This document shows positions 352 to 64,000 of a stretch of 64,000 nt of DNA, piece after piece. The DNA lies in assembly GCF_022965805.1 (NCBI RefSeq), contig NW_027331025.1, positions 1 through 64,000 of the forward strand. The letters run 5' to 3'. The DNA is from Primulina eburnea. Its lineage: Eukaryota; Streptophyta; Magnoliopsida; Lamiales; Gesneriaceae. A model generated the notes under the pieces. It had not been told where the DNA came from, made no database searches, and saw nothing but the letters and a program-made list of their open reading frames with translations. Made by a program: the position numbers and the translations under genes. Numbering within the stretch: position 1 is the stretch's first letter; the number at the start of each line of letters is the position of its first letter.

Positions 352-355
352 CGTC

Positions 356-9748: not shown

Positions 9749-9795
9749 AGCCGTGTACATCCAAGGATTTGCCATGTGTACGAAAACATGCAAAG

Positions 9796-9805: not shown

Positions 9806-11477
9806 GATTGGCCTCGAAATTCCCTTCATTCAGCAACAGAAATCGTGATTTCAGAGGAAGAAGAGCTTCCAACTTTCTTCAAGGCTTTGTATTGTGATTT
9901 TTTCAAGTCTTAGCCACCCAAACTTTAATCCGATTTTAGGGTTGAACTCCTCTCTTTATTTGCTACAAGTTGATGTAAGTATTGTTCAATTCTAGCATGT
10001 TTTGAGAATTACATATTGGGGAAATGCTGATATGCTTATATATATGTGTTCTTGAGAGAATTGTTATCGTAGAAACGCAATCGGATCGAAGAACGGATAT
10101 CGTATGTTATTATTATGATTTTTCAGCATGTATAGAAGGAAGTATATGCAGATTTTGAGATCTTGTCTTGGATATGGTGATGATTATGAATTGAGGAATG
10201 ATACAATTTTGATTAGGGAGAATTGGATTGACCGGTATCGAGAAATACACCGTTATGCCGTCAATGGTGTTGAAATGTACTAGTGAATTGATAGTATATG
10301 TATTGATTGGGTTAGGAATTGATGAAACACATATTACATTGCTATTTCAGATTGGTGTCGACGACTTTGACATCGAGTAATTGGCATCGACAGATAGTGT
10401 GCGACGAAAGGTATAAGTCATGTTTTGTTTGGGGAGATGTAACTCAATTAAGATATTATTTGAGTTTCCCAACCAAAATCACATACGAGTATTATTAAAT
10501 ATTTTGTAACATGTTTAAGAATTGTGTATAGCATTATATTCAATCTTTTAACATGTTATGCTTTGATTTCAGAATTGTATTCAAGCATGTATGATCAGTA
10601 TGATATTCAGCCATGAATATGATTATACGTTGTTTACATATTGATATTCATTGCATTTGAGATAGGAGAGTCTTTGACAGGCATTGTCAAATATCTAGAC
10701 GTTTCGGTGTATCTCAGCATAGGAGTAGGCATTACTCTTATTGCCGCCGTTGATACAGCTCAGACCGAAGTCTAGGAATGAGACGTACATTACCCCGATT
10801 GGAGGGTAGGTAGTGACGTCTTATTCACCCCGGGATCCCTAGAGTTCTAGTCGAGTCGAGTCCAGACATGGTTTGATTCGCATTGCATTGCATGTGCATA
10901 TGATGTCATTCATGATAACATGTTTCATGTTTAATTGATTATATGCATGTATACATGTTTATACTGGGATTTGTTCTCACCGGTTTTCCGGTTGTTGTTA
11001 TGTCTGTATGTGTGCATAACAACAGGTGGGGCAGGATCTGGGTCACGCAGAGGATGAGAGATGGACATAGCGTGGTGATCTCGGGCTTAGCAGAAAAACT
11101 AGTAGTTGTACTTTGACATGTACTGTATTTTATTACTAGTTGTTCAGAGTAGTTGGAACAAGACATATTGTACCTTATGTTTGTATTTTAAATAAGGCAT
11201 GTATGTTGTTTATATACCTTAGATTTAATATTAAAAAGCGAAAAATTTGACCCACTTTTATATTAACGATCCATTTTATCCCAAAGACAAAGTTAGAACC
11301 CGGGTCCCCACACAAGTAGTAGATTACAACAATATTGAGCAAAGTTTAGCCCATAAAGTAATCCGAAAATAGAATCCCTCCCCTTCTTAGTCCTAGGCAA
11401 CCCCAGAATAAAGTGCATAGAAATGTTAATCCAAGTTCTTTTAAGAATAGCACGCGAAAGTGTTCCCAAAGTTCTAT

Positions 11478-14400
11478 TTACAACTTCAGTTTGTCCATCC
11501 GTTTGAGGATGACAAGTAGTAGATTACAACAATATGGAGCAAAGTTTAGCCCATAAAGTAATCCAAAAATAGAATCCCTCCCCTTCTTAGTCCTAGGCAA
11601 CCCCAAAATAAAGTCCATAGAAATGTCAATCAATGTTCTTTTAAGAATAGCACGCACAAGTGTTCCCAAAGTTCTATTTACAACTTCAGTTTGTCCATCC
11701 GTTTGGGGATGACAAGTAGTAGATTACAACAATATTGAGCAAAGTTTAGCCCATATAAGTTTTATTGACAACTTCAGTTTGTCCATCCGTTTGAGGATGA
11801 CAAATAGTAGATTACAACAATATTGAGCAAAGTTTAGCCCATAAAGTAATCCAAAAATAGAATCCCTCCCCTTCTTAGTCCTAGGCAACCCCAAAATAAA
11901 GTGCATAGAAATGTCAATCCAAGTTCTTTTTAAGAATAGCACGCAAAAGTGTTCCCAAAGTTCTATTTACAACTTCAGTTTGTCCATCCGTTTGAGGATG
12001 ACAAGTAGTAGATTACAACTTTATTGTGCAAAGTTTAGCCCATAAAGTAATCCAAAAATAGAATCCCTCCCCTTCTTAGTCCTAGGCAACCCAAAATAAA
12101 GTCCATAGAAATGTCAATCCAAGTTCTTTTTAAGAATAGCACGCAAAAGTGTTCCCAAAGTTCTATTGACAACTTCAGTTTGTCCATCCGTTTGAGGATG
12201 ACAAGTAGTAGATTACAACAATATTGAGCAAAGTTTAGCACATAAAGTGATTTCCAAAAATAGAATCTTTCACCTTCTTAGTCCTAGGCAACCCCAAAAT
12301 AAAGTCCATAGAAATGTCAGTCCAAGTTCTTTTAAGAATAGCACGCAAAAGTGTTCCCAAAGTTCTATTTACAACTTCAGTTTGTCCATCCGTTTGAGGA
12401 TGACAAGTAGTAGATTACAACAATATGGAGCAAAGTTTAGCCCTTAAAGTAATCCAAAAATAGAATCCCTCCCCTTCTTAGTCCTAGGCAACCCCAAAAT
12501 AAAGTCCATAGAAATGTCAATCAAAGTTCTTTTAAGAATAGCACGCACAAGTGTTCCCAAAGTTCTATTTACAACTTCAGTTTGTCCATCCGTTTGGAGA
12601 TGACAAAGAGTAGATTACAACAATATTGAGTAAAGTTTAGCCCATATAAGTTCTATTGACAACTTCAGTTTATCCATCCGTTTGGGGATGACAAGTAGTA
12701 GATTACAACAATATTGAGCAAAGTTTAGCCCATATAAATTTTATTGACAACTTCAGTTTGTCCATCCGTTTGAGGATGACAAATAGTAGATTACAACAAT
12801 ATTGAGCAAAGTTTAGCCCATAAAGTAATCCAAAAATAGAATTCCTCCCCTTCTTAGTCCTAGGCAACCCCAAAATAAAGTGCATAGAAATGTCAATCCA
12901 AGTTCTTTTTAAGAATAGCACGCAAAAGTGTTCCCAAAGTTCTATTTACAACTTCAGTTTGTCCATCCGTTTGAGGATGACAAGTAGTAGATTACAACTT
13001 TATTGTGCAAAGTTTAGCCCATAAAGTAATCCAAAAATAGAATCCCTCCCCTTCTTAGTCCTAGGCAACCCCAAAATAAAGTCCATAGAAATGTCAATCC
13101 AAGTTCTTTTTAAGAATAGCACGCAAAAGTGTTCCCAAAGTTCTATTGACAACTTCAGTTTGTCCATCCGTTTGAGGATGACAAGTAGTAGATTACAACA
13201 ATATGGAGCAAGGTTAGGCCATAAAGTAATCCAAAAATAGAATCCCTCCCCTTCTTAGTCCTAGGCAACCCCAAAATAAAGTGCATAGAAATGTCAATCC
13301 AAGTTCTTTTATGAATAGCACGCAAAAGTGTTCCCAAAGTTCTATTTACAACTTCAGTTTGTCCATCCGTTTGGGGATGACAAGTAGTAGATTACAACAA
13401 TATTGAGCAAAGTTTAGCCCATAAAGTAATCCGAAAATAGAATCCCTCCCCTTCTTTTAAGAATAGCACGCAAAAGTGATCCCAAAGTTCTATTGACAAC
13501 TTCAGTTTGTCCATCTGTTTGAGGATGACAAGTAGTAGATTGCAACAATATTGTGCAAAGTTTAGCCCATAAAGTAATCCAAAAATAGAATCCCTCCCCT
13601 TCTTAATCCTAGGCAACCCCAAAATAAAGTCCATAGAAATGTCAATCCAAGTTCTTTTTAAGAATAGCACGCAAAAGTGTTCCCAAAGTTCTATTTATAA
13701 CTTCAGTTTGTCCATCCGTTTGAGGATGACAAGTAGTAGATTACAACAATATTGAGCAAAGTTTAGCACATAAAGTAATCCAAAAATAGAATCCCTCACC
13801 TTCTTAGTCCTAGGCAACCCCAAAATAAAGTCCATAGAAATGTCAGTCCAAGTTCCTTTAAGAATAGCACGCAAAAGTGTTCCCAAAGTTCTATTTACAA
13901 CTTCAGTTTGTCCATCCGTTTGAGGATGACAAGTAGTAGATTACAACAATATGGAGCAAAGTTTAGCCCATAAAGTAATCCAAAAATAGAATTCCACCCC
14001 TTCTTAGTCCTTGGCAACCCCAAAATAAAGTCCATAGAAATGTCAATCCAAGTTCTTTTTAAGAATAGCACGCAAAAGTGTTCCCAAAGTTCTATTTTAC
14101 AACTTCAGTTTGTCCATCCGTTTGAGGATGACAAGTAGCAGATTACAACAATATTGAGCAAAGTTTAGCCCATAAAGTAATCCAAAAATAGAATCCCTCC
14201 CCTTCTTAGTCCTAGGCAACCCAAAAATAAAGTCCATAGAAATGTCAATCCAAGTTCCTTTTAAGAATAGCACGCAAAAGTGTTCCCAAAGTTCTATTTA
14301 CAACTTCAGTTTGTCCATCCGTTTGGGGATGACAAGTAGTAGATTACAACAATATTGAGCAAAGTTTAGCCCATAAAGTAATCCGAAAATAGAATCCCTC

Positions 14401-17400
14401 CCCTTCTTAGTCCTAGGCAACCCCAGAATAAAGTGCATAGAAATGTTAATCCAAGTTCTTTTAAGAATAGCACGCGAAAGTGTTCCCAAAGTTCTATTTA
14501 CAACTTCAATTTGTCCATCCGTTTGAGGATGACAAGTAGTAGATTACAACAATATGGAGCAAAGTTTAGCCCATAAAGTAATCCAAAAATAGAATCCCTC
14601 CCCTTCTTAGTCCTAGGCAACCCCAAAATAAAGTCCATAGAAATGTCAATCAATGTTCTTTTAAGAATAGCACGCACAAGTGTTCCCAAAGTTCTATTTA
14701 CAACTTCAGTTTGTCCATCCGTTTGGGGATGACAAGTAGTAGATTACAACAATATTGAGCAAAGTTTAGCCCATATAAGTTTTATTGACAACTTCAGTTT
14801 GTCCATCCGTTTGAGGATGACAAATAGTAGATTACAACAATATTGAGCAAAGTTTAGCCCATAAAGTAATCCAAAAATAGAATCCCTCCCCTTCTTAGTC
14901 CTAAGCAACCCCAAAATAAAGTGCATAGAAATGTCTATCCAAGTTCTTTTTAAGAATAGCACGCAAAAGTGTTCCCAAAGTTCTATTTACAACTTCAGTT
15001 TGTCCATCCGTTTGAGGATGACAAGTAGTAGATTACAACTTTATTGTGCAAAGTTTAGCCCATAAAGTAATCCAAAAATAGAATCCCTCCCCTTCTTAGT
15101 CCTAGGCAACCCCAAAATAAAGTCCATAGAAATGTCAATCCAAGTTCTTTTTAAGAATAGCACGCAAAAGTGTTCCCAAAGTTCTATTGACAACTTCAGT
15201 TTGTCCATCCGTTTGAGGATGACAAGTAGTAGATTAAAACAATATTGAGCAAAGGTTAGCACATAAAGTGATTTCCAAAAATAGAATCTTTCGCCTTCTT
15301 AGTCCTAGGCAACCCCAAAATAAAGTCCATAGAAATGTCAGTCCAAGTTCTTTTAAGAATAGCACGCAAAAGTGTTCCCAAAGTTCTATTTACAACTTCA
15401 GTTTGTCCATCCGTTTGAGGATGACAAGTAGTAGATTACAACAATATGGAGCAAAGTTTAGCCCTTAAAGTAATCCAAAAATAGAATCCCTCCCCTTCTT
15501 AGTCCTAGGCAACCCCAAAATAAAGTCCATAGAAATGTCAATCAAAGTTCTTTTAAGAATAGCACGCACAAGTGTTCCCAAAGTTCTATTTACAACTTCA
15601 GTTTGTCCATCCGTTTGGAGATGACAAAGAGTAGATTACAACAATATTGAGCAAAGTTTAGCCCATATAAGTTCTATTGACAACTTCAGTTTATCCATCC
15701 GTTTGAGGATGACAAATAGTAGATTACAACAATATTGAGCAAAGTTTAGCCCATAAAGTAATCCAAAAATAGAATCCCTCCCCTTCTTAGTCCTAGGCAA
15801 CCCCAAAATAAAGTGCATAGAAATGTCAATCCAAGTTCTTTTTAAGAATAGCACGCAAAAGTGTTCCCAAAGTTCTATTTACAACTTCAGTTTGTCCATC
15901 CGTTTGAGGATGACAAGTAGTAGATTACAACTTTATTGTGCAAAGTTTAGCCCATAAAGTAATCCAAAAATAGAATCCCTCCCCTTCTTAGTCCTAGGCA
16001 ACCCCAAAATAAAGTCCATAGAAATGTCAATCCAAGTTCTTTTTAAGAATAGCACGCAAAAGTGTTCCCAAAGTTCTATTGACAACTTCAGTTTGTCCAT
16101 CCGTTTGAGGATGACAAGTAGTAGATTACAACAATATGGAGCAAGGTTAGGCCATAAAGTAATCCAAAAATAGAATCCCTCACCTTCTTAGTCCTAGGCA
16201 ACCCCAAAATAAAGTGCATAGAAATGTCAATCCAAGTTCTTTTATGAATAGCACGTAAAAGTGTTCCCAAAGTTCTATTTACAACTTCAGTTTGTCCATC
16301 CGTTTGGGGATGACAAGTAGTAGATTACAACAATATTGAGCAAAGTTTAGCCCATAAAGTAATCCGAAAATAGAATCCCTCCCCTTCTTTTAAGAATAGC
16401 TCGCAAAAGTGATCCCAAAGTTCTATTGACAACTTCAGTTTGTCCATCTGTTCGAGGATGACAAGTAGTAGATTGCAACAATATTGTGCAAAGTTTAGCC
16501 CATAAAGTAATCCAAAAATAGAATCCCTCCCCTTCTTAATCCTAGGCAACCCCAAAATAAAGTCCATAGAAATGTCAATCCAAGTTCTTTTTAAGAATAG
16601 CACGCAAAAGTGTTCCCAAAGTTCTATTTACAACTTCAGTTTGTCCATCCGTTTGAAGATGACAAGTAGTAGATTACAACAATATTGAGCAAAGTTTAGC
16701 ACATAAAGTAAACCAAAAATAGAATCCCTCACCTTCTTAGTCCTAGGCAACCCCAAAATAAAGTCCATAGAAATGTCAGTCCAAGTTCCTTTAAGAATAG
16801 CACGCAAAAGTGTTCCCAAAGTTCTATTTACAACTTCAGTTTGTCCATCCGTTTGAGGATGACAAGTAGTAGATTACAACAATATGGAGCAAAGTTTAGC
16901 CCATAAAGTAATCCAAAAATAGAATTCCTCCACTTCTTAGTCCTTGGCAACCCCAAAATAAAGTCCATAGAAATGTCAATCCAAGTTCTTTTTAAGAATA
17001 GCACGCAAAAGTGTTCCCAAAGTTCTATTTTACAACTTCAGTTTGTCCATCCGTTTGAGGATGACAAGTAGTAGATTACAACAATATTGAGCAAAGTTTA
17101 GCCCATAAAGTAATCCAAAAATAGAATCCCTCCCCTTCTTAGTCCTAGGCAACCCAAAAATAAAGTCCATAGAAATGTCAATCCAAGTTCTTTTTAAGAA
17201 TAGCACGCAAAAGTGTTCCCAAAGTTCTATTTACAACTTCAGTTTGTCCATCCGTTTGGGGATGACAAGTAGTAGATTACAACAATATTGAGCAAAGTTT
17301 AGCCCATAAAGTAATCCGAAAAGAGAATCCCTCCCCTTCTTAGTCCTAGGCAACCCCAGAATAAAGTGCATAGAAATGTTAATCCAAGTTCTTTTAAGAA

Positions 17401-20400
17401 TAGCACGCGAAAGTGTTCCCAAAGTTCTATTTACAACTTCAGTTTGTCCATCCGTTTGAGGATGACAAGTAGTAGATTACAACAATATGGAGCAAAGTTT
17501 AGCCCATAAAGTAATCCAAAAATAGAATCCCTCCCCTTCTTAGTCCTAGGCAACCCCAAAATAAAGTCCATAGAAATGTCAATCAATGTTCTTTTAAGAA
17601 TAGCACGCACAAGTGTTCTCAAAGTTCTATTTACAACTTCAGTTTGTCCATCCGTTTGGGGATGACAAGTAGTAGATTACAACAATATTGAGCAAAGTTT
17701 AGCCCCTATAAGTTTTATTGACAACTTCAGTTTGTCCATCCGTTTGAGGATGACAAATAGTAGATTACAACAATATTGAGCAAAGTTTAGCCCATAAAGT
17801 AATCCAAAAATAGAATCCCTCCCCTTCTTAGTCCTAGGCAACCCCAAAATAAAGTGCATAGAAATGTCAATCCAAGTTCTTTTATGAATAGCACGCAAAA
17901 GTGTTCCCAAAGTTCTATTTACAACTTCAGTTTGTCCATCCGTTTGGGGATGACAAGTAGTAGATTACAACAATATTGAGCAAAGTTTAGCCCATAAAGT
18001 AATCCGAAAATAGAATCCCTCCCCTTCTTTTAAGAATAGCTCGCAAAAGTGATCCCAAAGTTCTATTGACAACTTCAGTTTGTCCATCTGTTCGAGGATG
18101 ACAAGTAGTAGATTGCAACAATATTGTGCAAAGTTTAGCCCATAAAGTAATCCAAAAATAGAATCCGTCCCCTTCTTAATCCTAGGCAACCCCAAAATAA
18201 AGTCCATAGAAATGTCAATCCAAGTTCTTTTTAAGAATAGCACGCAAAAGTGTTCCCAAAGTTCTATTTACAACTTCAGTTTGTCCATCCGTTTGAAGAT
18301 GACAAGTAGTAGATTACAACAATATTGAGCAAAGTTTAGCACATAAAGTAAACCAAAAATAGAATCCCTCACCTTCTTAGTCCTAGGCAACCCCAAAATA
18401 AAGTCCATAGAAATGTCAGTCCAAGTTCCTTTAAGAATAGCACGCAAAAGTGTTCCCAAAGTTCTATTTACAACTTCAGTTTGTCCATCCGTTTGAGGAT
18501 GACAAGTAGTAGATTACAACAATATGGAGCAAAGTTTAGCCCATAAAGTAATCCAAAAATAGAATTCCTCCACTTCTTAGTCCTTGGCAACCCCAAAATA
18601 AAGTCCATAGAAATGTCAATCCAAGTTCTTTTTAAGAATAGCACGCAAAAGTGTTCCCAAAGTTCTATTTTACAACTTCAGTTTGTCCATCCGTTTGAGG
18701 ATGACAAGTAGTAGATTACAACAATATTGAGCAAAGTTTAGCCCATAAAGTAATCCAAAAATAGAATCCCTCCCCTTCTTAGTCCTAGGCAACCCAAAAA
18801 TAAAGTCCATAGAAATGTCAATCCAAGTTCTTTTTAAGAATAGCACGCAAAAGTGTTCCCAAAGTTCTATTTACAACTTCAGTTTGTCCATCCGTTTGGG
18901 GATGACAAGTAGTAGATTACAACAATATTGAGCAAAGTTTAGCCCATAAAGTAATCCGAAAAGAGAATCCCTCCCCTTCTTAGTCCTAGGCAACCCCAGA
19001 ATAAAGTGCATAGAAATGTTAATCCAAGTTCTTTTAAGAATAGCACGCGAAAGTGTTCCCAAAGTTCTATTTACAACTTCAGTTTGTCCATCCGTTTGAG
19101 GATGACAAGTAGTAGATTACAACAATATGGAGCAAAGTTTAGCCCATAAAGTAATCCAAAAATAGAATCCCTCCCCTTCTTAGTCCTAGGCAACCCCAAA
19201 ATAAAGTCCATAGAAATGTCAATCAATGTTCTTTTAAGAATAGCACGCACAAGTGTTCTCAAAGTTCTATTTACAACTTCAGTTTGTCCATCCGTTTGGG
19301 GATGACAAGTAGTAGATTACAACAATATTGAGCAAAGTTTAGCCCCTATAAGTTTTATTGACAACTTCAGTTTGTCCATCCGTTTGAGGATGACAAATAG
19401 TAGATTACAACAATATTGAGCAAAGTTTAGCCCATAAAGTAATCCAAAAATAGAATCCCTCCCCTTCTTAGTCCTAGGCAACCCCAAAATAAAGTGCATA
19501 GAAATGTCAATCCAAGTTCTTTTTAAGAATAGCACGCAAAAGTGTTCCCAAAGTTCTATTTACAACTTCAGTTTGTCCATCCGTTTGAGGATGACAAGTA
19601 GTAGATTACAACTTTATTGTGCAAAGTATAGCCCATAAAGTAATCCAAAAATAGAATCCCTCCCCTTCTTAGTCCTAGGCAACCCCAAAATAAAGTCCAT
19701 AGAAATGTCAATCCAAGTTCTTTTTAAGAATAGCACGCAAAAGTGTTCCCAAAGTTCTATTGACAACTTCAGTTTGTCCATCCGTTTGAGGATGACAAGT
19801 AGTAGATTACAACAATATTGAGCAAAGTTTAGCACATAAAGTGATTTCCAAAAATAGAATCTTTCACCTTCTTAGTCCTAGGCAACCCCAAAATAAAGTC
19901 CATAGAAATGTCAGTCCAAGTTCTTTTAAGAATAGCACGCAAAAGTGTTCCCAAAGTTCTATTTACAACTTCAGTTTGTCCATCCGTTTGAGGATGACAA
20001 GTAGTAGATTACAACAATATGGAGCAAAGTTTAGCCCATAAAGTAATCCAAAAATAGAATCCCTCCCCTTCTTAGTCCTAGGCAACCCCAAAATAAAGTC
20101 CATAGAAATGTCAATCAAAGTTCTTTTAAGAATAGCACGCACAAGTGTTCCCAAAGTTCTATTTACAACTTCAGTTTGTCCATCCGTTTGGAGATGACAA
20201 GTAGTAGATTACAACCATATTGAGCAAAGTTTAGCCCATATAAGTTCTATTGACAACTTCAGTTTATCCATCCGTTTGAGGATGACAAATAGTAGATTAC
20301 AACAATATTGAGCAAAGTTTAGCCCATAAAGTAATCCAAAAATAGAATCCCTCCCCTTCTTAGTCCTAGGCAACCCCAAAATAAAGTGCATAGAAATGTC

Positions 20401-22003: not shown

Positions 22004-23054
22004 TACAACTTCAGTTTGTCCATCCGTTTGAGGATGACAAGTAGTAGATTACAACAATATTGAGCAAAGTTTAGCCCATAAAGTAATCCAAAAATAGAAT
22101 CCCTCCCCTTCTTAGTCCTAGGCAACCCCAAAATAAAGTCCATAGAAATGTCAATCCAAGTTCTTTTTAAGAATAGCACGCAAAAGTGTTCCCAAAGTTC
22201 TATTTACAACTTTAGTTTGTCCATCCGTTTGAGGATGACAAGTAGTAGATTACAACAATATTGAGCAAAGTTTAGCCCATAAAGTTATCCAAAATAGAAT
22301 CCCTCACCTTCTTAGTCCTAGGCAACACCAAAATAAAGTCCATAGAAATGTCAGTCTAAGTTCTTTTAAGAATAGCACGCAAAAGTGTTCCCAAAGTTCT
22401 ATTTACAACTTCAGTTTTTCCATCCGTTTGAGGATGACAAGTAGTAGATTACAACAATATGGAGCAAAGTTTAGGCCATAAAGTAATCCAAAAATAGAAT
22501 CCCTCCCCTTCTTAGTCCTAGACAACCCCAAAATAAAGTCCATAGAAATGTCAATCCAAGTACTTTTAAGAATAGCACGCACAAGTGTTCCCAAAGTTCT
22601 ATTTACAACTTCAGTTTGTCCATCCGTTTGAGGATGACAAGTAGTATATTACAACAATATTGAGCTGAGTTTAGCCATAAAGTAATCCAAAAATAAAATC
22701 CATCCCCTTCTTAGTCCTTGGCAACCCCAAAATAAAGTCCATAGAAATGTCAATCCAAGTTCATTTTAAGAATAGCACGCAAAAGTGTTCCCAAAGTTCT
22801 ATTGACAACTTCAGTTTGTCCATCCGTTTGAGGATGACAAGTAGTAGATTACAACAATATTGAGCAAAGTTTAGCCCATAAAGTAATCCAAAAATAGAAT
22901 CCCTTCCCTTCTTAGTCCTAGGCAACCCTAAAATAAAGTCCAGAGAAATGTCAATCCAAGTTCTTTTTAAGAATAGCACGCAAAAGTGTTCCCAAATTTC
23001 TATTGACAACTTCAGTTCGTCCATCCGTTTGAGGATGACAAGTAGTAGATTACA

Positions 23055-23490
23055 ACTTATTGTGCAAATTTAGCCCATAAAAGTAATCCAAAAATAGAAT
23101 CCTCCCCTTCTTAGTCCTAGGCAACCACCAAAAATAAGTCATAGAAATGTCATCCAAGTTCTTTTTAAGAATTCAAGGCACGCAAAAGGTGGTCCCAAAG
23201 TTCTATTTACAACTTCATGTTGTCCAGTCCGTTTGAGGGATGACAAGTAGTAGATTAGCAACTCATTGTGAGCAAAAGTTTAGCCCATAAAGTAATCCAA
23301 AAGAGATCCCTCCCCTTCTTAGTCCTAGGCAACCCCAGAATAAAGTGCATAGAAAGTTAATCCAAGTTTCTTTTAAGATAAGCAACGCGAAAGTGTTCCA
23401 AGTTCTATTTCCACTTCAGTGTTGTCATCCGTTTGAGGATGACAGTAGTAGATTACAACAATATGGACTAAGTTTAGCCCATAGGATGAC
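23055..23490. other. Patch of clustered indels in the array
   Basis: About two monomers carry many single-base insertions and deletions not seen in neighbours (for example AAGGCACGCAAAAGGTGG and a 20-base jump at 23480). Adjacent monomers are clean. This fits low-accuracy raw read sequence left by gap filling rather than natural decay. Confidence 0.65.
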
Positions 23491-24180
23491 AAGTAGTAGA
23501 TTACAACAATATTGAGCAAAGTTTAGCTCATAAAGTAATCCAAAAATAGAATCCCTCCCCTTCTTAGTCCTAGGCAACCCCAAAATAAAGTCTATAGAAA
23601 TGTCAATCCAAGTTCTTTTTAAGAATAGCACGCAAAAGTGTTCCCAAAGTTCTATTTACAACTTTATTTTGTCCATCCGTTTGAGGATGGCAAGTAGTAG
23701 ATTACAACAATATTGAGCAAAGTTTAGCCCATAAAGTAATCCAAAAATAGAATCCCTCACCTTCTTAGTCCTAGGCAACCCCAAAATAAAGTCCATAGAA
23801 ATGTCAGTCTAAGTTCTTTTAAGAATAGCACGCAAAAGTGTTCCCAAAGTTCTATTGACAACTTCAGTTTTTCCATCCGTTTGAGGATGACAAGTAGTAG
23901 ATTACAACAATATGGAGCAAAGTTTAGCCCATAAAGTAATCCAAAAATAGAATCCCTCCCCTTCTTAGTCCTAGGCAACCCCAAAATAAAGTCCATAGAA
24001 ATGTCAATCCAAGTTCTTTTTAAGAATAGCACGCAAAAGTGTTCCCAAAGTTCTATTTACAATTTCAGTTTGTCCATCCGTTTGAGGATGACAAGTAGTA
24101 GATTACAACTTTATTGTGCAAAGTTTAGCCCATAAAGTAATCCAAAAATAGAATCCCTCCCCTTCTTAGTCCTAGGCAAC

Positions 24181-24250
24181 CCCAAAATAAAGTAATCCAA
24201 AAATAGAATCCCTCCCCTTCTTAGTCCTAGGCTACCCCAAAATAAAGTAG
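24181..24250. repeat. Rearranged monomer with breakpoints at ATAAAGT
   Basis: The sequence passes from AAAATAAAGT straight to AATCCAAAA, repeats the middle of the monomer, then passes from AAAATAAAGT to AGTAGATT. ATAAAGT occurs at two places in every monomer (CATAAAGTAATCC and AAATAAAGTCC), so recombination between these two sites explains the duplicated middle. Confidence 0.8.
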
Positions 24251-50820: not shown

Positions 50821-53800
50821 CAGTTTGTCCATCCGTTTGGGGATGACAAGTAGTAGATTACAACAATATTGAGCAAAGTTTAGCCCATATAAGTTCTATT
50901 GACAACTTCAGTTTGTCCATCCGTTTGAGGATGACAAATAGTAGATTACAACAATATTGAGCAAAGTTTAGCCCATAAAGTAATCCAAAAATAGAATCCC
51001 TCCCCTTCTTAGTCCTAGGCAACCCCAAAATAAAGTCCATAGAAATGTCAATCCAAGTTCTTTTTAAGAATAGCACGCAAAAGTGTTCCCAAAGTTCTAT
51101 TTACAACTTCAGTTTGTCCATCCGTTTGAGGATGACAAGTAGTAGATTACAACAATATGGAGCAAAGTTTAGCCCATAAAGTAATGCAAAAATAGAATCC
51201 CTCCCCTTCTTAGTCCTAGGCAACCCCAAAATAAAGTCCATAGAAATGTCAATCCAAGTTCTTTTTAAGAATAGCAAGCAAAAGTGTTCCCAAAGTTCTA
51301 TTGACTACTTCAGTTTGTCCATCTGTTTGAGGATGACAAGTAGTAGATTACAACAATATTGAGCAAAGTTTAGCTCATAAAGTAATCCAAAAATAGAATC
51401 CCTCCCCTTCTCAGTCCTAGGCAACCCCAAAATAAAGTGCATAGAAATGTCAATCCAAGTTCTTTTTAAGAATAGCACGCAAAAGTGTTCCCAAAGTTCT
51501 ATTTACAACTTCAGTTTGTCCATCCGTTTGAGAATGACAAGTAGTAGATTACAACAATATTGAGCAAAGGTTAGGCCATATAAGTTCTATTGACAACTTC
51601 AGTTTTTCCATCTGTTTGAGGATGACAAGTAGTAGATTACAACAATATTGAGCAAAGTTTAGCCCATAAAGTAATCCAAAAATAGAATCCCTCCCCTTCT
51701 TAGTCCTAGACAACCCCAAAATAAAGTGCATAGAAATGTTAATCCAAGTTCTTTTAAGAATTGCACGCACAAGTGTTCCCAAAATTCTATTTACAACTTC
51801 AGTTTGTCCATCCGTTTGAGGATGACAAGTAGTAGATTACAACAATATGGAGCAAAGTTTAGCCCATAAAGTAATGCAAAAATAGAATCCCTCCCCTTCT
51901 TAGTCCTAGGCAACCCCAAAATAAAGTCCATAGAAATGTCAATCCAAGTTCTTTTAAGAATAGCACGCACAAGTGTTCCCAAAGTTCTATTTACAACTTC
52001 AGTTTGTCCATCCGTTTGGGATGACAAGTAGTAGATTACAACAATATTGAGCAAAGTTTAGCCCATATAAGTTCTATTGACAACTTCAGTTTGTCCATCC
52101 GTTTGAGGATGACAAATAGTAGATTACAACAATATTGAGCAAAGTTTAGCCCATAAAGTAATCCAAAAATAGAATCCCTCCCCTTCTTAGTCCTAGGCAA
52201 CCCAAAAATAAAATCCATAGAAATGTCAATCCAAGTTCTTTTTAAGAATAGCACGCAAAAGTGTTCCCAAAGTTCTATTTACAACTTCAGTTTGTCCATC
52301 CGTTTGAGGATGACAAGTAGTAGATTACAACAATATGGAGCAAAGTTTAGCCCATAAAGTAATGCAAAAATAGAATCCCTCCCCTTCTTAGTCCTAGGCA
52401 ACCCCAAAATAAAGTCCATAGAAATGTCAATCCAAGTTCTTTTTAAGAATAGCACGCAAAAGTGTTCCCAAAGTTCTATTGACTACTTCAGTTTGTCCAT
52501 CTGTTTGAGGATGACAAGTAGTAGATTACAACAATATTGAGCAAAGTTTAGCCCATAAAGTAATCCAAAAATAGAATCCCTCCCCTTCTCAGTCCTAGGC
52601 AACCCCAAAATAAAGTGCATAGAAATGTCAATCCAAGTTCTTTTTAAGAATAGCACGCAAAAGTGTTCCCAAAGTTCTATTTACAACTTCAGTTTGTCCA
52701 TCCGTTTGAGAATGACAAGTAGTAGATTACAACAATATTGAGCAAAGGTTAGGCCATATAAGTTCTATTGACAACTTCAGTTTTTCCATCCGTTTGAGGA
52801 TGACAAGTAGTAGATTACAACAATATTGAGCAAAGTTTAGCCCATAAAGTAATCCAAAAATAGAATCCCTCCCCTTCTTAGTCCTAGGCAACCCTAAAAT
52901 AAAGTGCATAGAAATGTCAGTCCAAGTTCTTTTAAGAATAGCACGCAAAAGTGTTCCCAAAGTTCTATTTACAACTTCAGTTTGTCCATCCGTTTGAGGA
53001 TGACAAGTAGTAGATTACAACAATATGGAGCAAAGTTTAGCCCATAAAGTAATGCAAAAATAGAATCCCTCCCCTTCTTAGTCCTAGGCAACCCCAAAAT
53101 AAAGTCCATAGAAATGTCAATCCAAGTTCTTTTTAAGAATAGCACGCAAAAGTGTTCCCAAAGTTCTATTGACTACTTCAGTTTGTCCATCTGTTTGAGG
53201 ATGACAAGTAGTAGATTACAACAATATTGAGCAAAGTTTAGCCCATAAAGTAATCCAAAAATAGAATCCCTCCCCTTCTCAGTCCTTGGCAACCCCAAAA
53301 TAAAGTCCATAGAAATGTCAATCCAAGTTCTTTTTAAGAATAGCACGCAAAAGTGTTCCTAAAGTTCTATTGACAACTTCAGTTTGTCCATCGGTTTGAG
53401 GATGACAAGTAGTAGATTACAACAATATTGAGCAAAGTTTAGCCCATAAAGTAATCCAAAAATAGAATCCCTCCCCTTCTTAGTCCTAGGCAACCCCAAA
53501 ATAAAGTGCATAGAAATGTTAATCCAAGTTCTTTTAAGAATAGCACGCACAAGTGTTCCCAAAGTTCTATTTACAACTTCAGTTTGTCCATCCGTTTGAG
53601 GATGACAAGTAGTAGATTACAACAATATTGAGCAAAGTTTAGCCCATAAAGTAATCCAAAAATAGAATCCCTCACCTTATTAGTCCTAGGCAACCCCAAA
53701 ATAAAGTCCACAGAAATGTCAGTCCAAGTTCTTTTAAGAATAGCACGCAAAAGTGTTCCCAAAGTTCTATTTACAACTTCAGTTTGTCCATCCGTTTGAG

Positions 53801-55040
53801 GATGACAAGTAGTAGATTACAACAATATGAAGCAAAGTTTAGCCCATAAAGTAATGCAAAAATAGAATCCCTCCCCTTCTTAGTCCTAGGCAACCCCAAA
53901 ATAAAGTCCATAGAAATGTCAATCCAAGTTCTTTTAAGAATAGCACGCACAAGTGTTCCCAAAGTTCTATTTACAACTTCAGTTTCTATTGACAAACTTC
54001 AGTTCGTCCATCCGTTTGAGGATGACAAGTAGTAGATTACAACTTTATTGTGCAAAGTTTAGCCCATAAAGTAATCCAAAAATAGAATCCCTCCCCTTCT
54101 TAGTCCTAGGCAACCCCAAAATAAAGTCCATAGAAATGTCAATCCAAGTTCTTTTTAAGAATAGCACGCAAAAAGTGTTCCCAAAGTTCTATTTACAACT
54201 TCAGTTTGTCCATCTGTTTGAGGATGACAAGTAGTAGATTACAACAATATGGAGCAAAGTTTAGCCCATAAAGTAATGCAAAAATAGAATCCCTCCCCTT
54301 CTTAGTCCTAGGCAACCCCAAAATAAAGTCCATAGAAATGTCAATCCAAGTTCTTTTTAAGAATAGCACGCAAAAGTGTTCCCAAAGTTCTATTGACTAA
54401 CTTCAGTTTGTCCATCTGTTTGAGGATGACAAGTAGTAGATTACAACAATATTGAGCAAAGTTTAGCTCATAAAGTAATCCAAAAATAGAATCCCTCCCC
54501 TTCTCAGTCCTAGGCAACCCCAAAATAAAGTGCATAGAAATGTCAATCCAAGTTCTTTTTAAGAATAGCACGCAAAAGTGTTCCCAAAGTTCTATTTACA
54601 ACTTCAGTTTGTCCATCCGTTTGAGAATGACAAGTAGTAGATTACAACAATATTGAGCAAAGGTTAGGCCATATAAGTTCTATTGACAACTTCAGTTTTT
54701 CCATCTGTTTGAGGATGACAAGTAGTAGATTACAACAATATTGAGCAAAGTTTAGCCCATAAAGTAATCCAAAAATAGAATCCCTCCCCTTCTTAGTCCT
54801 AGACAACCCCAAAATAAAGTGCATAGAAATGTTAATCCAAGTTCTTTTAAGAATTGCACGCACAAGTGTTCCCAAAATTCTATTTACAACTTCAGTTTGT
54901 CCATCCGTTTGAGGATGACAAGTAGTAGATTACAACAATATGGAGCAAAGTTTAGCCCATAAAGTAATGCAAAATAGAATCCCTCCCCTTCTTTAGTCCC
55001 TAGGCAACCCCCAAAATAAAGTCCATAGAAATGTCAATCC
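49250..55040 (-). repeat. Duplication at 8955-bp offset, left copy
   Basis: Subtypes and breakpoints match 58205-64000 at 8955 bp, almost base for base up to about 53985. Inside it a 3159-bp unit begins at 50200 and restarts at 53359; its size fits 14 full plus four 88-bp monomers. The second unit is rearranged at about 53985-54180. Confidence 0.82.
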
Positions 55041-55775
55041 AAGTTCTTTAAGAATATAGCACGCACAAGTGTCCACAAAGTTCTATTTACAACTTCAGTT
55101 TGTCCATACCGTTTGGATGACAAGTAGTAGATTACAACAATATGAGCACAGTTTAGCCCATATAAGTTCTATTGACCCACTTCAGTTTGTCCCCTTATCC
55201 GTTTGAGGATGACAAATAGTAGATTACAACATATTGAGCAAAGTTTAGCCCATAAAGTAATCCAAAAATAGAATCCCTCCCCTTCTTAGTCCTAGGCAAC
55301 CCCAAAAATAAAATCCATAGAAATGTCAATCCAAGTTCTTTTTAAGAATAGCACGCAAAAGTGTTCCCAAAGTTCTATTTACAACTTCAGTTTGTCCATC
55401 CGTTTGAGGATGACAAGTAGTAGATTACAACAATATGGACTGCAAAGTTTAGCCCATAAAGTAATCCAAAAATAGAATCCCTCCCCCTTCTTAGTCCTAG
55501 GCAACCCCAAAATAAAGTCCATAGAAATGTCAATCCAAAGTTCTTTTAAGAATAGCACCGCAAAAGTGTTCCCAAAGTTCTATTTACAACTTCAGTTTGT
55601 CCCATCCGTTGAGGATGACAAGTAGTAGATTACAACAAATATGGAGCAAAGTTTAGCCCATCAAAGTAATCCAAAAATAGAATCCCTCCCCTTCTTAGTC
55701 CTAGCAACCCCAAAATAAAGTCCATAGAAATGTCAATCCAAGTCTTTTAAGAATAGCACGCAAAAAGTGTTCCCA
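54960..55775. other. Third patch of clustered indels in the array
   Basis: About four monomers contain many single-base errors in homopolymers and elsewhere (for example CCCCCTTC, CACCGCAAAAG, GTCCACAAAG). It lies between two blocks that are otherwise clean, so a join of low-accuracy sequence is likely. Confidence 0.65.
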
Positions 55776-56177
55776 AAGTTCTATTTACAACTTCAGTTTG
55801 TCCATCCGTTTGAGGATGACAAGTAGTAGATTACAACAATATTGAGCAAAGTTTAGCCCATAAAGTAATCCAAAAATAGAATCCCTCCCCTTCTTAGTCC
55901 TAGGCAACCCCAAAATAAAGTGCATAGAAATGTTAATCCAAGTTCTTTTAAGAATAGCACGCACAAGTGTTCCCAAAGTTCTATTTACAACTTCAGTTTG
56001 TCCATCCGTTTGAGGATGACAAGTAGTAGATTACAACAATATTGAGCAAAGTTTAGCCCATAAAGTAATCCAAAAATAGAATCCCTCACCTTATTAGTCC
56101 TAGGCAACCCCAAAATAAAGTCCACAGAAATGTCAGTCCAAGTTCTTTTAAGAATAGCACGCAAAAGTGTTCCCAAA

Positions 56178-56377
56178 GTTCTATTTACAACTTCAGTTTG
56201 TCCATCCGTTTGAGGATGACAAGTAGTAGATTACAACAATATTGAGCAAAGTTTAGCCCATAAAGTAATGCAAAAATAGAATCCCTCCCCTTCTTAGTCC
56301 TAGGCAACCCCAAAATAAAGTCCATAGAAATGTCAATCCAAGTTCTTTTAAGAATAGCACGCACAAGTGTTCCCAAA
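56178..56377 (-). repeat. Representative full 200-bp monomer
   Basis: The monomer runs from GTTCTATTTACAAC to TTCCCAAA. Order on the plus strand: the reverse complement of TEVVNRTL, of [11 protein letters not shown], then of ITLWAKL, the junction at CCAAAAATAGAATCC, then the reverse complements of [10 protein letters not shown] and [11 protein letters not shown], and last LLRAILK across the monomer boundary. Because 200 is not a multiple of three, reading frames do not persist from monomer to monomer. Confidence 0.9.
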
Positions 56378-56465
56378 GTTCTATTTACAACTTCAGTTTG
56401 TCCATCCGTTTGGGGATGACAAGTAGTAGATTACAACAATATTGAGCAAAGTTTAGCCCATATAA
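56378..56465 (-). repeat. Representative 88-bp short monomer
   Basis: A monomer with about 112 bp missing: CCCATA joins directly to TAAGTTCTATTGAC. The same junction occurs at more than 40 places in the array (for example near 11750, 20235, 36357, 47506, 58150, 63000). A second flavour has GGTTAGGCCATATAAG (for example near 33515, 51580, 60530). Confidence 0.9.
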
Positions 56466-58204
56466 GTTCTATTGACAACTTCAGTTTGTCCATCCGTTTG
56501 AGGATGACAAATAGTAGATTACAACAATATTGAGCAAAGTTTAGCCCATAAAGTAATCCAAAAATAGAATCCCTCCCCTTCTTAGTCCTAGGCAACCCCA
56601 AAATAAAGTCCATAGAAATGTCAATCCAAGTTCTTTTTAAGAATAGCACGCAAAAGTGTTCTCAAAGTTCTATTTACAACTTCAGTTTGTCCATCCGTTT
56701 GAGCATGACAAGTAGTAGATTACAACAATATGAAGCAAAGTTTAGCCCATAAAGTAATCCAAAAATATAATCCCTCCCCTTCTTAGTCCTAGGCAACCCC
56801 AAAATAAAGTCCATAGAAATGTCAATCCAAGTTCTTTTAAGAATAGCACGCACAAGTGTTCCCAAAGTTCTATTTACAACTTCAGTTTGTCCATCCGTTT
56901 GAGGATGACAAGTAGTAGATTACAACAATATTGAGCAAATTTTAGCCCATAAAGTAATCCAAAAATAGAATCCCTCCCCTTCTTAGTCCTAGGCAACCCC
57001 AAAATAAAGGGCATAGAAATGTCAATCCAAATTCTTTTTAAGAATAGCACGCAAAAGTGTTCCCAAAGTTCTATTGACAACTTCAGTTCGTCCATCCGTT
57101 TGAGGATGACAAGTAGTAGATTACAACTTTATTGTGCAAAGTTTAGCCCATAAAGTAATCCAAAAATAGAATCCCTCCCCTTCTTAGTCCTAGGCAACCC
57201 CAAAATAAAGTCCATAGAAATGTCAATCCAAGTTCTTTTTAAGAATAGCACGCAAAAGTGTTCCCAAAGTTCTATTTACAACTTCAGTTTGTCCATCTGT
57301 TTGAGGATGACAAGTAGTAGATTACAACAATATTGAGCAAAGTTTAGCCATAAAGTAATCCAAAAATAGAATCCCTCCCCTTCTTAGTCCTTGGCAACCC
57401 CAAAATAAAGTCCATAGAAATGTCAATCCAAGTTCTTTTTAAGAATAGCACGCAAAAGTGTTCCTAAAGTTCTATTGACAACTTCAGTTTGTCCATCGGT
57501 TTGAGGATGACAAGTAGTAGATTACAACAATATTGAGCAAAGTTTAGCCCATAAAGTAATCCAAAAATAGAATCCCTCCCCTTCTTAGTCCTAGGCAACC
57601 CCAAAATAAAGTGCATAGAAATGTTAATCCAAGTTCTTTTAAGAATAGCACGCACAAGTGTTCCCAAAGTTCTATTTACAACTTCAGTTTGTCCATCCGT
57701 TTGAGGATGACAAGTAGTAGATTACAACAATATTGAGCAAAGTTTAGCCCATAAAGTAATCCAAAAATAGAATCCCTCACCTTATTAGTCCTAGGCAACC
57801 CCAAAATAAAGTCCACAGAAATGTCAGTCCAAGTTCTTTTAAGAATAGCACGCAAAAGTGTTCCCAAAGTTCTATTTACAACTTCAGTTTGTCCATCCGT
57901 TTGAGGATGACAAGTAGTAGATTACAACAATATTGAGCAAAGTTTAGCCCATAAAGTAATGCAAAAATAGAATCCCTCCCCTTCTTAGTCCTAGGCAACC
58001 CCAAAATAAAGTCCATAGAAATGTCAATCCAAGTTCTTTTAAGAATAGCACGCACAAGTGTTCCCAAAGTTCTATTTACAACTTCAGTTTGTCCATCCGT
58101 TTGGGGATGACAAGTAGTAGATTACAACAATATTGAGCAAAGTTTAGCCCATATAAGTTCTATTGACAACTTCAGTTTGTCCATCCGTTTGAGGATGACA
58201 AGTA

Positions 58205-61200
58205 GTAGATTACAACAATATTGAGCAAAGTTTAGCCCATAAACTAATCCAAAAATAGAATCCCTCCCCTTCTTAGTCCTAGGCAACCCCAAAATAAAGT
58301 CCATAGAAATGTCAATCCAAGTTCTTTTTAAGAATAGCACGCAAAAGTGTTCTCAAAGTTCTATTTACAACTTCAGTTTGTCCATCCGTTTGAGCATGAC
58401 AAGTAGTAGATTACAACAATATGAAGCAAAGTTTAGCCCATAAAGTAATCCAAAAATATAATCCCTGCCCTTCTTAGTCCTAGGCAACCCCAAAATAAAG
58501 TCCATAGAAATGTCAATCCAAGTTCTTTTAAGAATAGCACGCACAAGTGTTCCCAAAGTTCTATTTACAACTTCAGTTTGTCCATCCGTTTGAGGATGAC
58601 AAGTAGTAGATTACAACAATATTGAGCAAATTTTAGCCCATAAAGTAATCCAAAAATAGAATCCCTCCCCTTCTTAGTCCTAGGCAACCCCAAAATAAAG
58701 GGCATAGAAATGTCAATCCAAATTCTTTTTAAGAATAGCACGCAAAAGTGTTCCCAAAGTTCTATTGACAACTTCAGTTCGTCCATCCGTTTGAGGATGA
58801 CAAGTAGTAGATTACAACTTTATTGTGCAAAGTTTAGCCCATAAAGTAATCCAAAAATAGAATCCCTCCCCTTCTTAGTCCTAGGCAACCCCAAAATAAA
58901 GTCCATAGAAATGTCAATCCAAGTTCTTTTTAAGAATAGCACGCAAAAGTGTTCCCAAAGTTCTATTTACAACTTCAGTTTGTCCATCTGTTTGAGGATG
59001 ACAAGTAGTAGATTACAACAATATTGAGCAAAGTTTAGCCATAAAGTAATCCAAAAATAGAATCCCTCCCCTTCTTAGTCCTTGGCAACCCCAAAATAAA
59101 GTCCATAGAAATGTCAATCCAAGTTCTTTTTAAGAATAGCACGCAAAAGTGTTCCTAAAGTTCTATTGACAACTTCAGTTTGTCCATCGGTTTGAGGATG
59201 ACAAGTAGTAGATTACAACAATATTGAGCAAAGTTTAGCCCATAAAGTAATCCAAAAATAGAATCCCTCCCCTTCTTAGTCCTAGGCAACCCCAAAATAA
59301 AGTGCATAGAAATGTTAATCCAAGTTCTTTTAAGAATAGCACGCACAAGTGTTCCCAAAGTTCTATTTACAACTTCAGTTTGTCCATCCGTTTGAGGATG
59401 ACAAGTAGTAGATTACAACAATATTGAGCAAAGTTTAGCCCATAAAGTAATCCAAAAATAGAATCCCTCACCTTATTAGTCCTAGGCAACCCCAAAATAA
59501 AGTCCACAGAAATGTCAGTCCAAGTTCTTTTAAGAATAGCACGCAAAAGTGTTCCCAAAGTTCTATTTACAACTTCAGTTTGTCCATCCGTTTGAGGATG
59601 ACAAGTAGTAGATTACAACAATATGAAGCAAAGTTTAGCCCATAAAGTAATGCAAAAATAGAATCCCTCCCCTTCTTAGTCCTAGGCAACCCCAAAATAA
59701 AGTCCATAGAAATGTCAATCCAAGTTCTTTTAAGAATAGCACGCACAAGTGTTCCCAAAGTTCTATTTACAACTTCAGTTTGTCCATCCGTTTGGGGATG
59801 ACAAGTAGTAGATTACAACAATATTGAGCAAAGTTTAGCCCATATAAGTTCTATTGACAACTTCAGTTTGTCCATCCGTTTGAGGATGACAAATAGTAGA
59901 TTACAACAATATTGAGCAAAGTTTAGCCCATAAAGTAATCCAAAAATAGAATCCCTCCCCTTCTTAGTCCTAGGCAACCCCAAAATAAAGTCCATAGAAA
60001 TGTCAATCCAAGTTCTTTTTAAGAATAGCACGCAAAAGTGTTCCCAAAGTTCTATTTACAACTTCAGTTTGTCCATCCGTTTGAGGATGACAAGTAGTAG
60101 ATTACAACAATATGGAGCAAAGTTTAGCCCATAAAGTAATGCAAAAATTGAATCCCTCCCCTTCTTAGTCCTAGGCAACCCCAAAATAAAGTCCATAGAA
60201 ATGTCAATCCAAGTTCTTTTTAAGAATAGCAAGCAAAAGTGTTCCCAAAGTTCTATTGACTACTTCAGTTTGTCCATCTGTTTGAGGATGACAAGTAGTA
60301 GATTACAACAATATTGAGCAAAGTTTAGCTCATAAAGTAATCCAAAAATAGAATCCCTCCCCTTCTCAGTCCTAGGCAACCCCAAAATAAAGTGCATAGA
60401 AATGTCAATCCAAGTTCTTTTTAAGAATAGCACGCAAAAGTGTTCCCAAAGTTCTATTTACAACTTCAGTTTGTCCATCCGTTTGAGAATGACAAGTAGT
60501 AGATTACAACAATATTGAGCAAAGGTTAGGCCATATAAGTTCTATTGACAACTTCAGTTTTTCCATCTGTTTGAGGATGACAAGTAGTAGATTACAACAA
60601 TATTGAGCAAAGTTTAGCCCATAAAGTAATCCAAAAATAGAATCCCTCCCCTTCTTAGTCCTAGACAACCCCAAAATAAAGTGCATAGAAATGTTAATCC
60701 AAGTTCTTTTAAGAATTGCACGCACAAGTGTTCCCAAAATTCTATTTACAACTTCAGTTTGTCCATCCGTTTGAGGATGACAAGTAGTAGATTACAACAA
60801 TATGGAGCAAAGTTTAGCCCATAAAGTAATGCAAAAATAGAATCCCTCCCCTTCTTAGTCCTAGGCAACCCCAAAATAAAGTCCATAGAAATGTCAATCC
60901 AAGTTCTTTTAAGAATAGCACGCACAAGTGTTCCCAAAGTTCTATTTACAACTTCAGTTTGTCCATCCGTTTGGGATGACAAGTAGTAGATTACAACAAT
61001 ATTGAGCAAAGTTTAGCCCATATAAGTTCTATTGACAACTTCAGTTTGTCCATCCGTTTGAGGATGACAAATAGTAGATTACAACAATATTGAGCAAAGT
61101 TTAGCCCATAAAGTAATCCAAAAATAGAATCCCTCCCCTTCTTAGTCCTAGGCAACCCAAAAATAAAATCCATAGAAATGTCAATCCAAGTTCTTTTTAA

Positions 61201-64000
61201 GAATAGCACGCAAAAGTGTTCCCAAAGTTCTATTTACAACTTCAGTTTGTCCATCCGTTTGAGGATGACAAGTAGTAGATTACAACAATATGGAGCAAAG
61301 TTTAGCCCATAAAGTAATGCAAAAATAGAATCCCTCCCCTTCTTAGTCCTAGGCAACCCCAAAATAAAGTCCATAGAAATGTCAATCCAAGTTCTTTTTA
61401 AGAATAGCACGCAAAAGTGTTCCCAAAGTTCTATTGACTACTTCAGTTTGTCCATCTGTTTGAGGATGACAAGTAGTAGATTACAACAATATTGAGCAAA
61501 GTTTAGCCCATAAAGTAATCCAAAAATAGAATCCCTCCCCTTCTCAGTCCTAGGCAACCCCAAAATAAAGTGCATAGAAATGTCAATCCAAGTTCTTTTT
61601 AAGAATAGCACGCAAAAGTGTTCCCAAAGTTCTATTTACAACTTCAGTTTGTCCATCCGTTTGAGAATGACAAGTAGTAGATTACAACAATATTGAGCAA
61701 AGGTTAGGCCATATAAGTTCTATTGACAACTTCAGTTTTTCCATCCGTTTGAGGATGACAAGTAGTAGATTACAACAATATTGAGCAAAGTTTAGCCCAT
61801 AAAGTAATCCAAAAATAGAATCCCTCCCCTTCTTAGTCCTAGGCAACCCTAAAATAAAGTGCATAGAAATGTCAGTCCAAGTTCTTTTAAGAATAGCACG
61901 CAAAAGTGTTCCCAAAGTTCTATTTACAACTTCAGTTTGTCCATCCGTTTGAGGATGACAAGTAGTAGATTACAACAATATGGAGCAAAGTTTAGCCCAT
62001 AAAGTAATGCAAAAATAGAATCCCTCCCCTTCTTAGTCCTAGGCAACCCCAAAATAAAGTCCATAGAAATGTCAATCCAAGTTCTTTTTAAGAATAGCAC
62101 GCAAAAGTGTTCCCAAAGTTCTATTGACTACTTCAGTTTGTCCATCTGTTTGAGGATGACAAGTAGTAGATTACAACAATATTGAGCAAAGTTTAGCCCA
62201 TAAAGTAATCCAAAAATAGAATCCCTCCCCTTCTCAGTCCTTGGCAACCCCAAAATAAAGTCCATAGAAATGTCAATCCAAGTTCTTTTTAAGAATAGCA
62301 CGCAAAAGTGTTCCTAAAGTTCTATTGACAACTTCAGTTTGTCCATCGGTTTGAGGATGACAAGTAGTAGATTACAACAATATTGAGCAAAGTTTAGCCC
62401 ATAAAGTAATCCAAAAATAGAATCCCTCCCCTTCTTAGTCCTAGGCAACCCCAAAATAAAGTGCATAGAAATGTTAATCCAAGTTCTTTTAAGAATAGCA
62501 CGCACAAGTGTTCCCAAAGTTCTATTTACAACTTCAGTTTGTCCATCCGTTTGAGGATGACAAGTAGTAGATTACAACAATATTGAGCAAAGTTTAGCCC
62601 ATAAAGTAATCCAAAAATAGAATCCCTCACCTTATTAGTCCTAGGCAACCCCAAAATAAAGTCCACAGAAATGTCAGTCCAAGTTCTTTTAAGAATAGCA
62701 CGCAAAAGTGTTCCCAAAGTTCTATTTACAACTTCAGTTTGTCCATCCGTTTGAGGATGACAAGTAGTAGATTACAACAATATGAAGCAAAGTTTAGCCC
62801 ATAAAGTAATGCAAAAATAGAATCCCTCCCCTTCTTAGTCCTAGGCAACCCCAAAATAAAGTCCATAGAAATGTCAATCCAAGTTCTTTTAAGAATAGCA
62901 CGCACAAGTGTTCCCAAAGTTCTATTTACAACTTCAGTTTGTCCATCCGTTTGGGGATGACAAGTAGTAGATTACAACAATATTGAGCAAAGTTTAGCCC
63001 ATATAAGTTCTATTGACAACTTCAGTTTGTCCATCCGTTTGAGGATGACAAATAGTAGATTACAACAATATTGAGCAAAGTTTAGCCCATAAAGTAATCC
63101 AAAAATAGAATCCCTCCCCTTCTTAGTCCTAGGCAACCCCAAAATAAAGTCCATAGAAATGTCAATCCAAGTTCTTTTTAAGAATAGCACGCAAAAGTGT
63201 TCCCAAAGTTCTATTTACAACTTCAGTTTGTCCATCCGTTTGAGGATGACAAGTAGTAGATTACAACAATATGGAGCAAAGTTTAGCCCATAAAGTAATG
63301 CAAAAATTGAATCCCTCCCCTTCTTAGTCCTAGGCAACCCCAAAATAAAGTCCATAGAAATGTCAATCCAAGTTCTTTTTAAGAATAGCAAGCAAAAGTG
63401 TTCCCAAAGTTCTATTGACTACTTCAGTTTGTCCATCTGTTTGAGGATGACAAGTAGTAGATTACAACAATATTGAGCAAAGTTTAGCTCATAAAGTAAT
63501 CCAAAAATAGAATCCCTCCCCTTCTCAGTCCTAGGCAACCCCAAAATAAAGTGCATAGAAATGTCAATCCAAGTTCTTTTTAAGAATAGCACGCAAAAGT
63601 GTTCCCAAAGTTCTATTTACAACTTCAGTTTGTCCATCCGTTTGAGAATGACAAGTAGTAGATTACAACAATATTGAGCAAAGGTTAGGCCATATAAGTT
63701 CTATTGACAACTTCAGTTTTTCCATCTGTTTGAGGATGACAAGTAGTAGATTACAACAATATTGAGCAAAGTTTAGCCCATAAAGTAATCCAAAAATAGA
63801 ATCCCTCCCCTTCTTAGTCCTAGACAACCCCAAAATAAAGTGCATAGAAATGTTAATCCAAGTTCTTTTAAGAATTGCACGCACAAGTGTTCCCAAAATT
63901 CTATTTACAACTTCAGTTTGTCCATCCGTTTGAGGATGACAAGTAGTAGATTACAACAATATGGAGCAAAGTTTAGCCCATAAAGTAATGCAAAAATAGA
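58205..64000 (-). repeat. Duplication at 8955-bp offset, right copy (runs off window)
   Basis: This is the partner of 49250-55040. It contains a 3159-bp unit at 59155-62313 and the start of a second at 62314. Unlike the left copy, the second unit here is not rearranged. The array is still in full register at the last base. Confidence 0.82.

Follow-up and report, generated by a model that had tools for sequence, protein, structure and literature searches.

The window analysed here, 64,000 nucleotides of the Primulina eburnea genome (assembly GCF_022965805.1, contig NW_027331025.1, positions 1 to 64,000), runs out in a long tandem array, and so raises the question of what such a satellite was made from. 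According to the original prediction, drawn from the letters alone, the array is a 52-kb satellite of about 270 monomer equivalents in one orientation, and its entire monomer is a rearranged piece of the catalytic-core coding region of a retrotransposon integrase. We think it very probable that the satellite arose from a single fragment of a decayed Ty3/gypsy integrase gene, which was then amplified in several steps; a retrotransposon protein gene, rather than the non-coding ends of the element, would have been turned into satellite DNA. The founding rearrangement of a satellite is seldom readable, and here the protein code marks the loss, the join and the order of the pieces.

The head-to-tail array is at least 52.7 kb long (52,688 bp), since it is still running at the right end of the window, and is composed of ~200/201-bp units with ~88-bp and ~149-bp units interspersed among them. 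Most TRF periods are close to 200/201 or 87/88 bp, and composite ones also occur (148, 288, 349, 401 and 489 among them); from 12 kb onward the GC content is 36-37% and the skew steadily negative. Each of nine anchor words was counted 167-274 times on the plus strand, and none of them appears as its reverse complement anywhere in the window, which bears out the single orientation. A looser anchor, placed at 303 positions (302 intervals), also broke some units into ~43 + 157 bp, and only the 195 intervals of 199-202 bp were aligned to give the consensus unit of 201 bp; the mean pairwise identity of these full-size units is 0.953 (3000 sampled pairs). When the array from 11313 to 64000 was tiled on this consensus with jumps allowed, every part of it found a place, at 2.4% mismatch with 65 inserted bases and 56 jumps, in agreement with the predicted extent. 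Copy number at sampled consensus positions is 284-290 in the part that the short units retain and 238-245 elsewhere; these figures, and the quotient 52,688/200 = 263, fit the predicted number of monomers. At the one locus covered, this is a long, one-orientation, head-to-tail array of near-identical units, as expected of a satellite. The features of the window are collected in Table 1.

Table 1. Features of the window, numbered from its first nucleotide.
Feature	Position	Strand	Basis and remarks
Satellite array	11313..64000	minus (integrase sense)	TRF, anchor words, consensus tiling, tblastn; continues past right window edge
Example of an 88-bp unit	11720..11807	minus	anchor to anchor, junction 11756; one of 44
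TRF row with one 149-bp-type unit	13304..13604	minus	junction 13455
Disturbed patch	23238..24249	minus	three once-only jumps and local 48-bp and 55-bp duplications (TRF, tiling)
3' LTR (TG...CA) of outer Ty3/gypsy element	9418..11312	plus	bounds by eye; 5' LTR outside window
3' internal part of outer Ty3/gypsy element	7367..9417	plus	ORF 7378-9288, Pfam
Inner young LTR retrotransposon	28-7366		interrupts outer element; LTR comparison, ORFs, Pfam

All 201 consensus bases fall inside two pieces of a Ty3/gypsy integrase core, A and B, on the minus strand (6 bases in both), as the claim for the entire monomer had it; one frame of this strand gives a 27-residue reading and another a 23-residue reading. 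Set side by side, the pieces match the Ty3 Gag-Pol chain 7q5b_A at E 3.7e-6, B at 1169-1191 and A at 1258-1289, and neither passes alone (i-E 1.5 and 0.25); three matches of the joined peptide to lectin chains (E 0.004-0.3) were taken as chance. In a large protein database, where 1749 of 1823 candidates pass 1e-3 and the organism-named ones among the 120 listed are all plants, the joined peptide matches a Primulina polyprotein at E 3.0e-29. The translated similarity on which the prediction had been made to depend is present in both of these searches, and again in the tblastn matches described below. Both pieces could be paired by script in 115 of the 120 listed relatives, with a gap between B and A of 53 residues in 114 of them and 100 in one; the highest identity among these 115 belongs to P0009, from Primulina huaijiensis (Gesneriaceae), with 22/23 residues in B and 41/46 in A. 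By E-value alone, P0001 from Senna tora comes first among those listed (2.3e-54), a lead it owes to containing two integrase copies; P0001-P0003, the best by E-value, were considered as tandem units and turned out, by eye, to be proteins with two separate integrase copies instead. Three short unit peptides matched 0 Pfam families, a result that speaks against the integrase similarity; Rfam gave 0 matches at the gathering threshold, the monomer DNA patterns occurred in 0 viral and 0 genome contigs (neither collection being of plants), and the 11 pattern matches of P0009 in the viral contigs include no relative. On the protein matches, the unit derives from identifiable retrotransposon sequence, which places the array among the retrotransposon-derived satellites.

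It had further been supposed that each unit carries recognisable integrase motifs; both motifs are indeed widespread on the minus strand of the array, but they are not found in every unit. At up to 2 substitutions the 11-residue motif occurs 228 times and the 15-residue motif 264 times on that strand (106 and 155 places exactly); the plus strand has 0 of either, as does one base-shuffled array. The part with the 11-residue motif is missing from 44 short units, and the two motifs lie in different frames of the 201-bp consensus.

What the unit has lost can be followed with pieces of the Primulina protein P0009 as tblastn queries (E<=0.01). Within the array, A gives 285 HSPs and B 243, all on the minus strand, and there are 0 for the 53 residues between B and A and 0 for each of the two flanking stretches of 60 residues. 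The left flank, with its two other integrases, serves as positive control, and there every one of the five queries finds a match (B once, the others twice each). From these matches and the consensus coverage together, the unit reads as an internally deleted fragment of the integrase core, of ~122 codons minus 53-54 internal ones, joined head to tail. We take the residues of the catalytic triad to be those in SMDF, SDRD and GQTE. In P0009, by our own count, the first D of SDRD and the E of GQTE are exactly 35 residues apart, and according to the accessible text of PMC3059260 integrases of this kind follow D,D(35)E as a rule. The missing segment holds the second D, and the unit would therefore retain the first D and the E and have lost the second catalytic aspartate; no complete D,D(35)E triad is present in the array, whose unit is derived from an integrase and is not itself one.

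Two junctions found the unit. The B-to-A junction reads TCTATTTTTGGATT in the consensus; the donor upstream of the deletion would, to judge from the codons, read TATTTTTG and then T (a valine codon), and downstream of it TATTTTTGG (Tyr-Phe-Trp), a pattern compatible with deletion between short direct repeats. At the A-to-B junction, AACTTGGATTGAC, two bases and perhaps more can be assigned to both sides. The overlaps at both of these junctions are deduced from the codons. Later events are recorded by the jumps in the tiling: 44 of the 56 are one and the same junction, from consensus 40 to 154, which produces the 88-bp units (B is wholly deleted, and of A only the middle survives), 4 are a second junction, from 71 to 125, which produces the 149-bp units, and the remaining 8 are single and fall outside both types. 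By eye, both common deletions sit at short repeats of the consensus: AAAGT, in which one base is changed or added, and TTCTT. That these junctions are held in common argues that each was a single event that spread, and the two later deletions thereby trace spread within the array. The 88-bp units are scattered from 11756 to 63695; the 149-bp junctions, at 13455, 16388, 18028 and 20961, are confined to the left 10 kb of the array.

Copying of longer blocks is equally evident, with 77% of the array inside exact repeats of at least 200 bp. There are 247 maximal exact pairs, the longest of 2791 bp (51195 and 60150); a pair of 1765 bp (59077 and 62236) comes next, then two of 1681 bp, and offsets among the top 25 by length range from 1.6 to 24.0 kb. 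Mean identity, taken over the 195 full-size units, is flat, at 0.952-0.956, for lags 1-24, without a regular higher-order repeat; the array thus shows block duplication of an irregular kind. C>T changes stand at 3.1% in CG (only 4 sites), 1.3% in CHH (66 sites) and 0.35% in CHG (3 sites), and A/T transitions at 0.5%; with so few CG sites, methylation-type decay is not claimed.

We propose a multi-step model for how this satellite might have arisen, built on the composition of the unit, the order of its pieces, the shared junctions and the exact block copies, all of which are read directly from the array. A ~122-codon stretch of the core (WIDISMDF to RAILKKNL) would first have been shortened by 53-54 codons from its interior, the second catalytic aspartate among them, probably by deletion between short direct repeats around TATTTTTG. 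What was left would then have been joined head to tail, through tandem duplication or a small circle, its ends overlapping by two bases or slightly more. Unequal exchange, conversion or rolling-circle amplification may have expanded the product to an array of at least 52.7 kb; the 88-bp and 149-bp deletions would have arisen once each and spread, and blocks of up to 2.8 kb would have been copied recently. LTR retrotransposons would have inserted at the left of the array as a fourth step, whose place in the sequence of events is likewise our inference.

A possible extension of this origin, and one that is compatible with it, is that the array is centromeric and its donor a centromeric (CRM-clade) retrotransposon, which would add a place and a role; we regard this as a tentative suggestion that may well prove wrong. 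The style of the donor's motifs is, we presume, CRM-like, and this counts for it. Three relatives (P0009, P0010 and P0012) have no Pfam chromodomain match at E<=0.1; a chromodomain is not expected in groups A and B of CRM, to go by the accessible part of PMC3059260, and that of PMC3648361 describes maize tandem repeats that stem from centromeric elements. Against this, such silence from Pfam says little, because the chromodomain of the inner flanking element itself scores just 18.7 bits against a cut-off of 25.1; a fourth relative, P0008, is cut off too early to be informative, and the flat identity profile over lags 1-24 shows no regular higher-order repeat. The bolder form of the idea, that the integrase gene of a centromeric retrotransposon, bearing a centromere-targeting function, itself became the centromeric satellite of a Gesneriaceae plant, strikes us as improbable.

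It is very unlikely that, instead of being a satellite in its own right, the array is a tandem-repeat domain borne within a retrotransposon, comparable to the short repeats in the 3' UTR of Ogre elements. Many satellites of Lathyrus sativus were seeded by carriers of this sort, as far as the available text of PMC7004042 goes, and a Ty3/gypsy element does touch the array on its left. This outer element, whose ORF (7378-9288) encodes RNase H, an H2C2 zinc finger and an SH3-like domain, with rve below the Pfam cut-off, ends in an LTR whose terminal CA is directly adjoined by the array; the array begins there in mid-unit, at 11313, and so lies outside the element, which, because the boundary falls mid-unit, was apparently inserted into the array. 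LTR retrotransposons are, moreover, usually shorter than 52.7 kb. Neither neighbouring element is the donor, since the peptide of the satellite shares 19/42 and 11/27 residues with the inner integrase and 21/44 with the outer one (piece A only), far below the identities with P0009. The unit is integrase coding sequence, and not the Tat-lineage 3' UTR tandem repeat from which an Ogre-type satellite is made.

That the block structure or the length of the array is an artefact of assembly we consider highly improbable: exact copies of up to 2791 bp are hard for assemblers, but the sampled units differ pairwise by ~5% and the longest exact pairs are spaced at unequal offsets (8955, 3159, 11837 and 7264), unlike a single stutter.

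As for coding capacity, the array contains no ORF of 120 aa or more (shorter ones are not listed), and divergence at codon positions 1, 2 and 3 is 0.023, 0.018 and 0.028 in A and 0.035, 0.026 and 0.014 in B; relative to the neutral expectation, N/S stands at 0.78, somewhat below 1, for copies that are not independent. In units shorter by one T, A and B come to lie in one frame, with ~81 codons between stops by hand reading. The fused 81-aa query gave 581 matches (120 listed), and HPQTD followed by ISMDF within 70 aa was found in 0 of 323 proteins, as was the deletion join; BLAST also gave 106 HSPs spanning the fused junction, 20 of which were inspected, and since the order test on the same proteins was negative we interpret them as alignments extended through gaps on intact integrases. 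We attach next to no credence to a short integrase-like peptide still encoded by the array and in use, for example against integration, which the one-T-shorter units would favour, given the stop codon before STTC in the consensus, the lack of long ORFs, the codon-position divergences and the fused order seen in none of the 323 proteins examined. To judge by its sequence, the array is non-coding and a coding function unlikely; it behaves as repetitive DNA that is probably heterochromatic, a chromatin role we suggest by inference.

We judge the array to belong with the known retrotransposon-derived satellites, its source region being uncommon. The portion of a 2022 review available to us (PMC9659126) tabulates LTRs, UTRs, TIRs, LINE ORF2, gag and Tnp2 transposase as sources; no row there names integrase, some rows give no region and one gives 'any region'. 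The accessible text of that review also holds that any part of an element may become a satellite source, and this lowers the novelty of an integrase-derived one. The description of the source as unusual was a fair one; coding-region satellites from gag, LINE ORF2 and CACTA transposase are on record in the same portion, and the catalytic core of an LTR-retrotransposon integrase joins these, in a list dominated by LTRs, UTRs and other already-repeated parts. In the open-access literature, as far as its accessible text extends, we recognised no integrase-derived satellite and no satellite of Gesneriaceae.

Among the closest parallels are CRM1TR and CRM4TR of maize (PMC3648361, in part), tandem arrays likewise wholly derived from Ty3/gypsy sequence, with later LTR-element insertions and local homogenisation; theirs, however, come from LTR and UTR and have longer units with internal repeats, whereas here the source is integrase coding sequence. 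The Ogre-derived satellites of Lathyrus sativus (PMC7004042) and PisTR-A of pea (PMC9659126) also expanded from Ty3/gypsy sequence but, in the sections available, were seeded by pre-existing short tandem repeats of the 3' UTR, a seed not seen here. The cereba gag repeat of Aegilops speltoides and rye E3900 are tandem repeats tied to a coding part of an LTR retrotransposon, that part being gag and not integrase, and the wheat case is tabled as a CAA microsatellite; the Jozin-derived satellite of Chenopodium stems, like ours, from the coding region of an enzyme that moves its element (Tnp2 transposase), but from a class II CACTA transposon (all in the consulted portion of PMC9659126). Among the centromeric repeats of sugarcane, Ss51, Ss68 and Ss166 show similarity to Ty3/gypsy proteins and Ss262 matches gag-pol over a short stretch; integrase-only tandem units are not named in the available part of PMC5278356. 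Some satellites of Salvia (Lamiales) show partial similarity to other sequences (PMC9460151, in part), and an integrase-derived satellite is absent from the accessible portions of PMC12371157, PMC6444444 and PMC12692304.

The inner element on the left has LTRs of 1343 bp with 2 differing positions (one LTR compared 2 bases short), a target-site duplication ATCCG, and a gag-pol region in two overlapping ORFs (1454-4402 and 4260-5882). A search with the first ORF scored 7988 candidates, of which 83 pass; the best by E-value is from Trifolium repens (50% over 93%), and in the upper rows the highest local identities are from Primulina and Henckelia (70-85% over 11-30%), with Dorcoceras at 58% over 62%. 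These three genera are Gesneriaceae, as is the nearest relative of the satellite's integrase. Both LTRs of the inner element carry clusters of a palindromic 19-bp unit (GGTTCGGATCGTCCGAAGA type) at 100-347 and 6096-6343, just upstream of a TATAAATA, and the LTR of the outer element contains a GC-rich minisatellite at 9508-9749, with a ~65-bp period and 3.7 copies.
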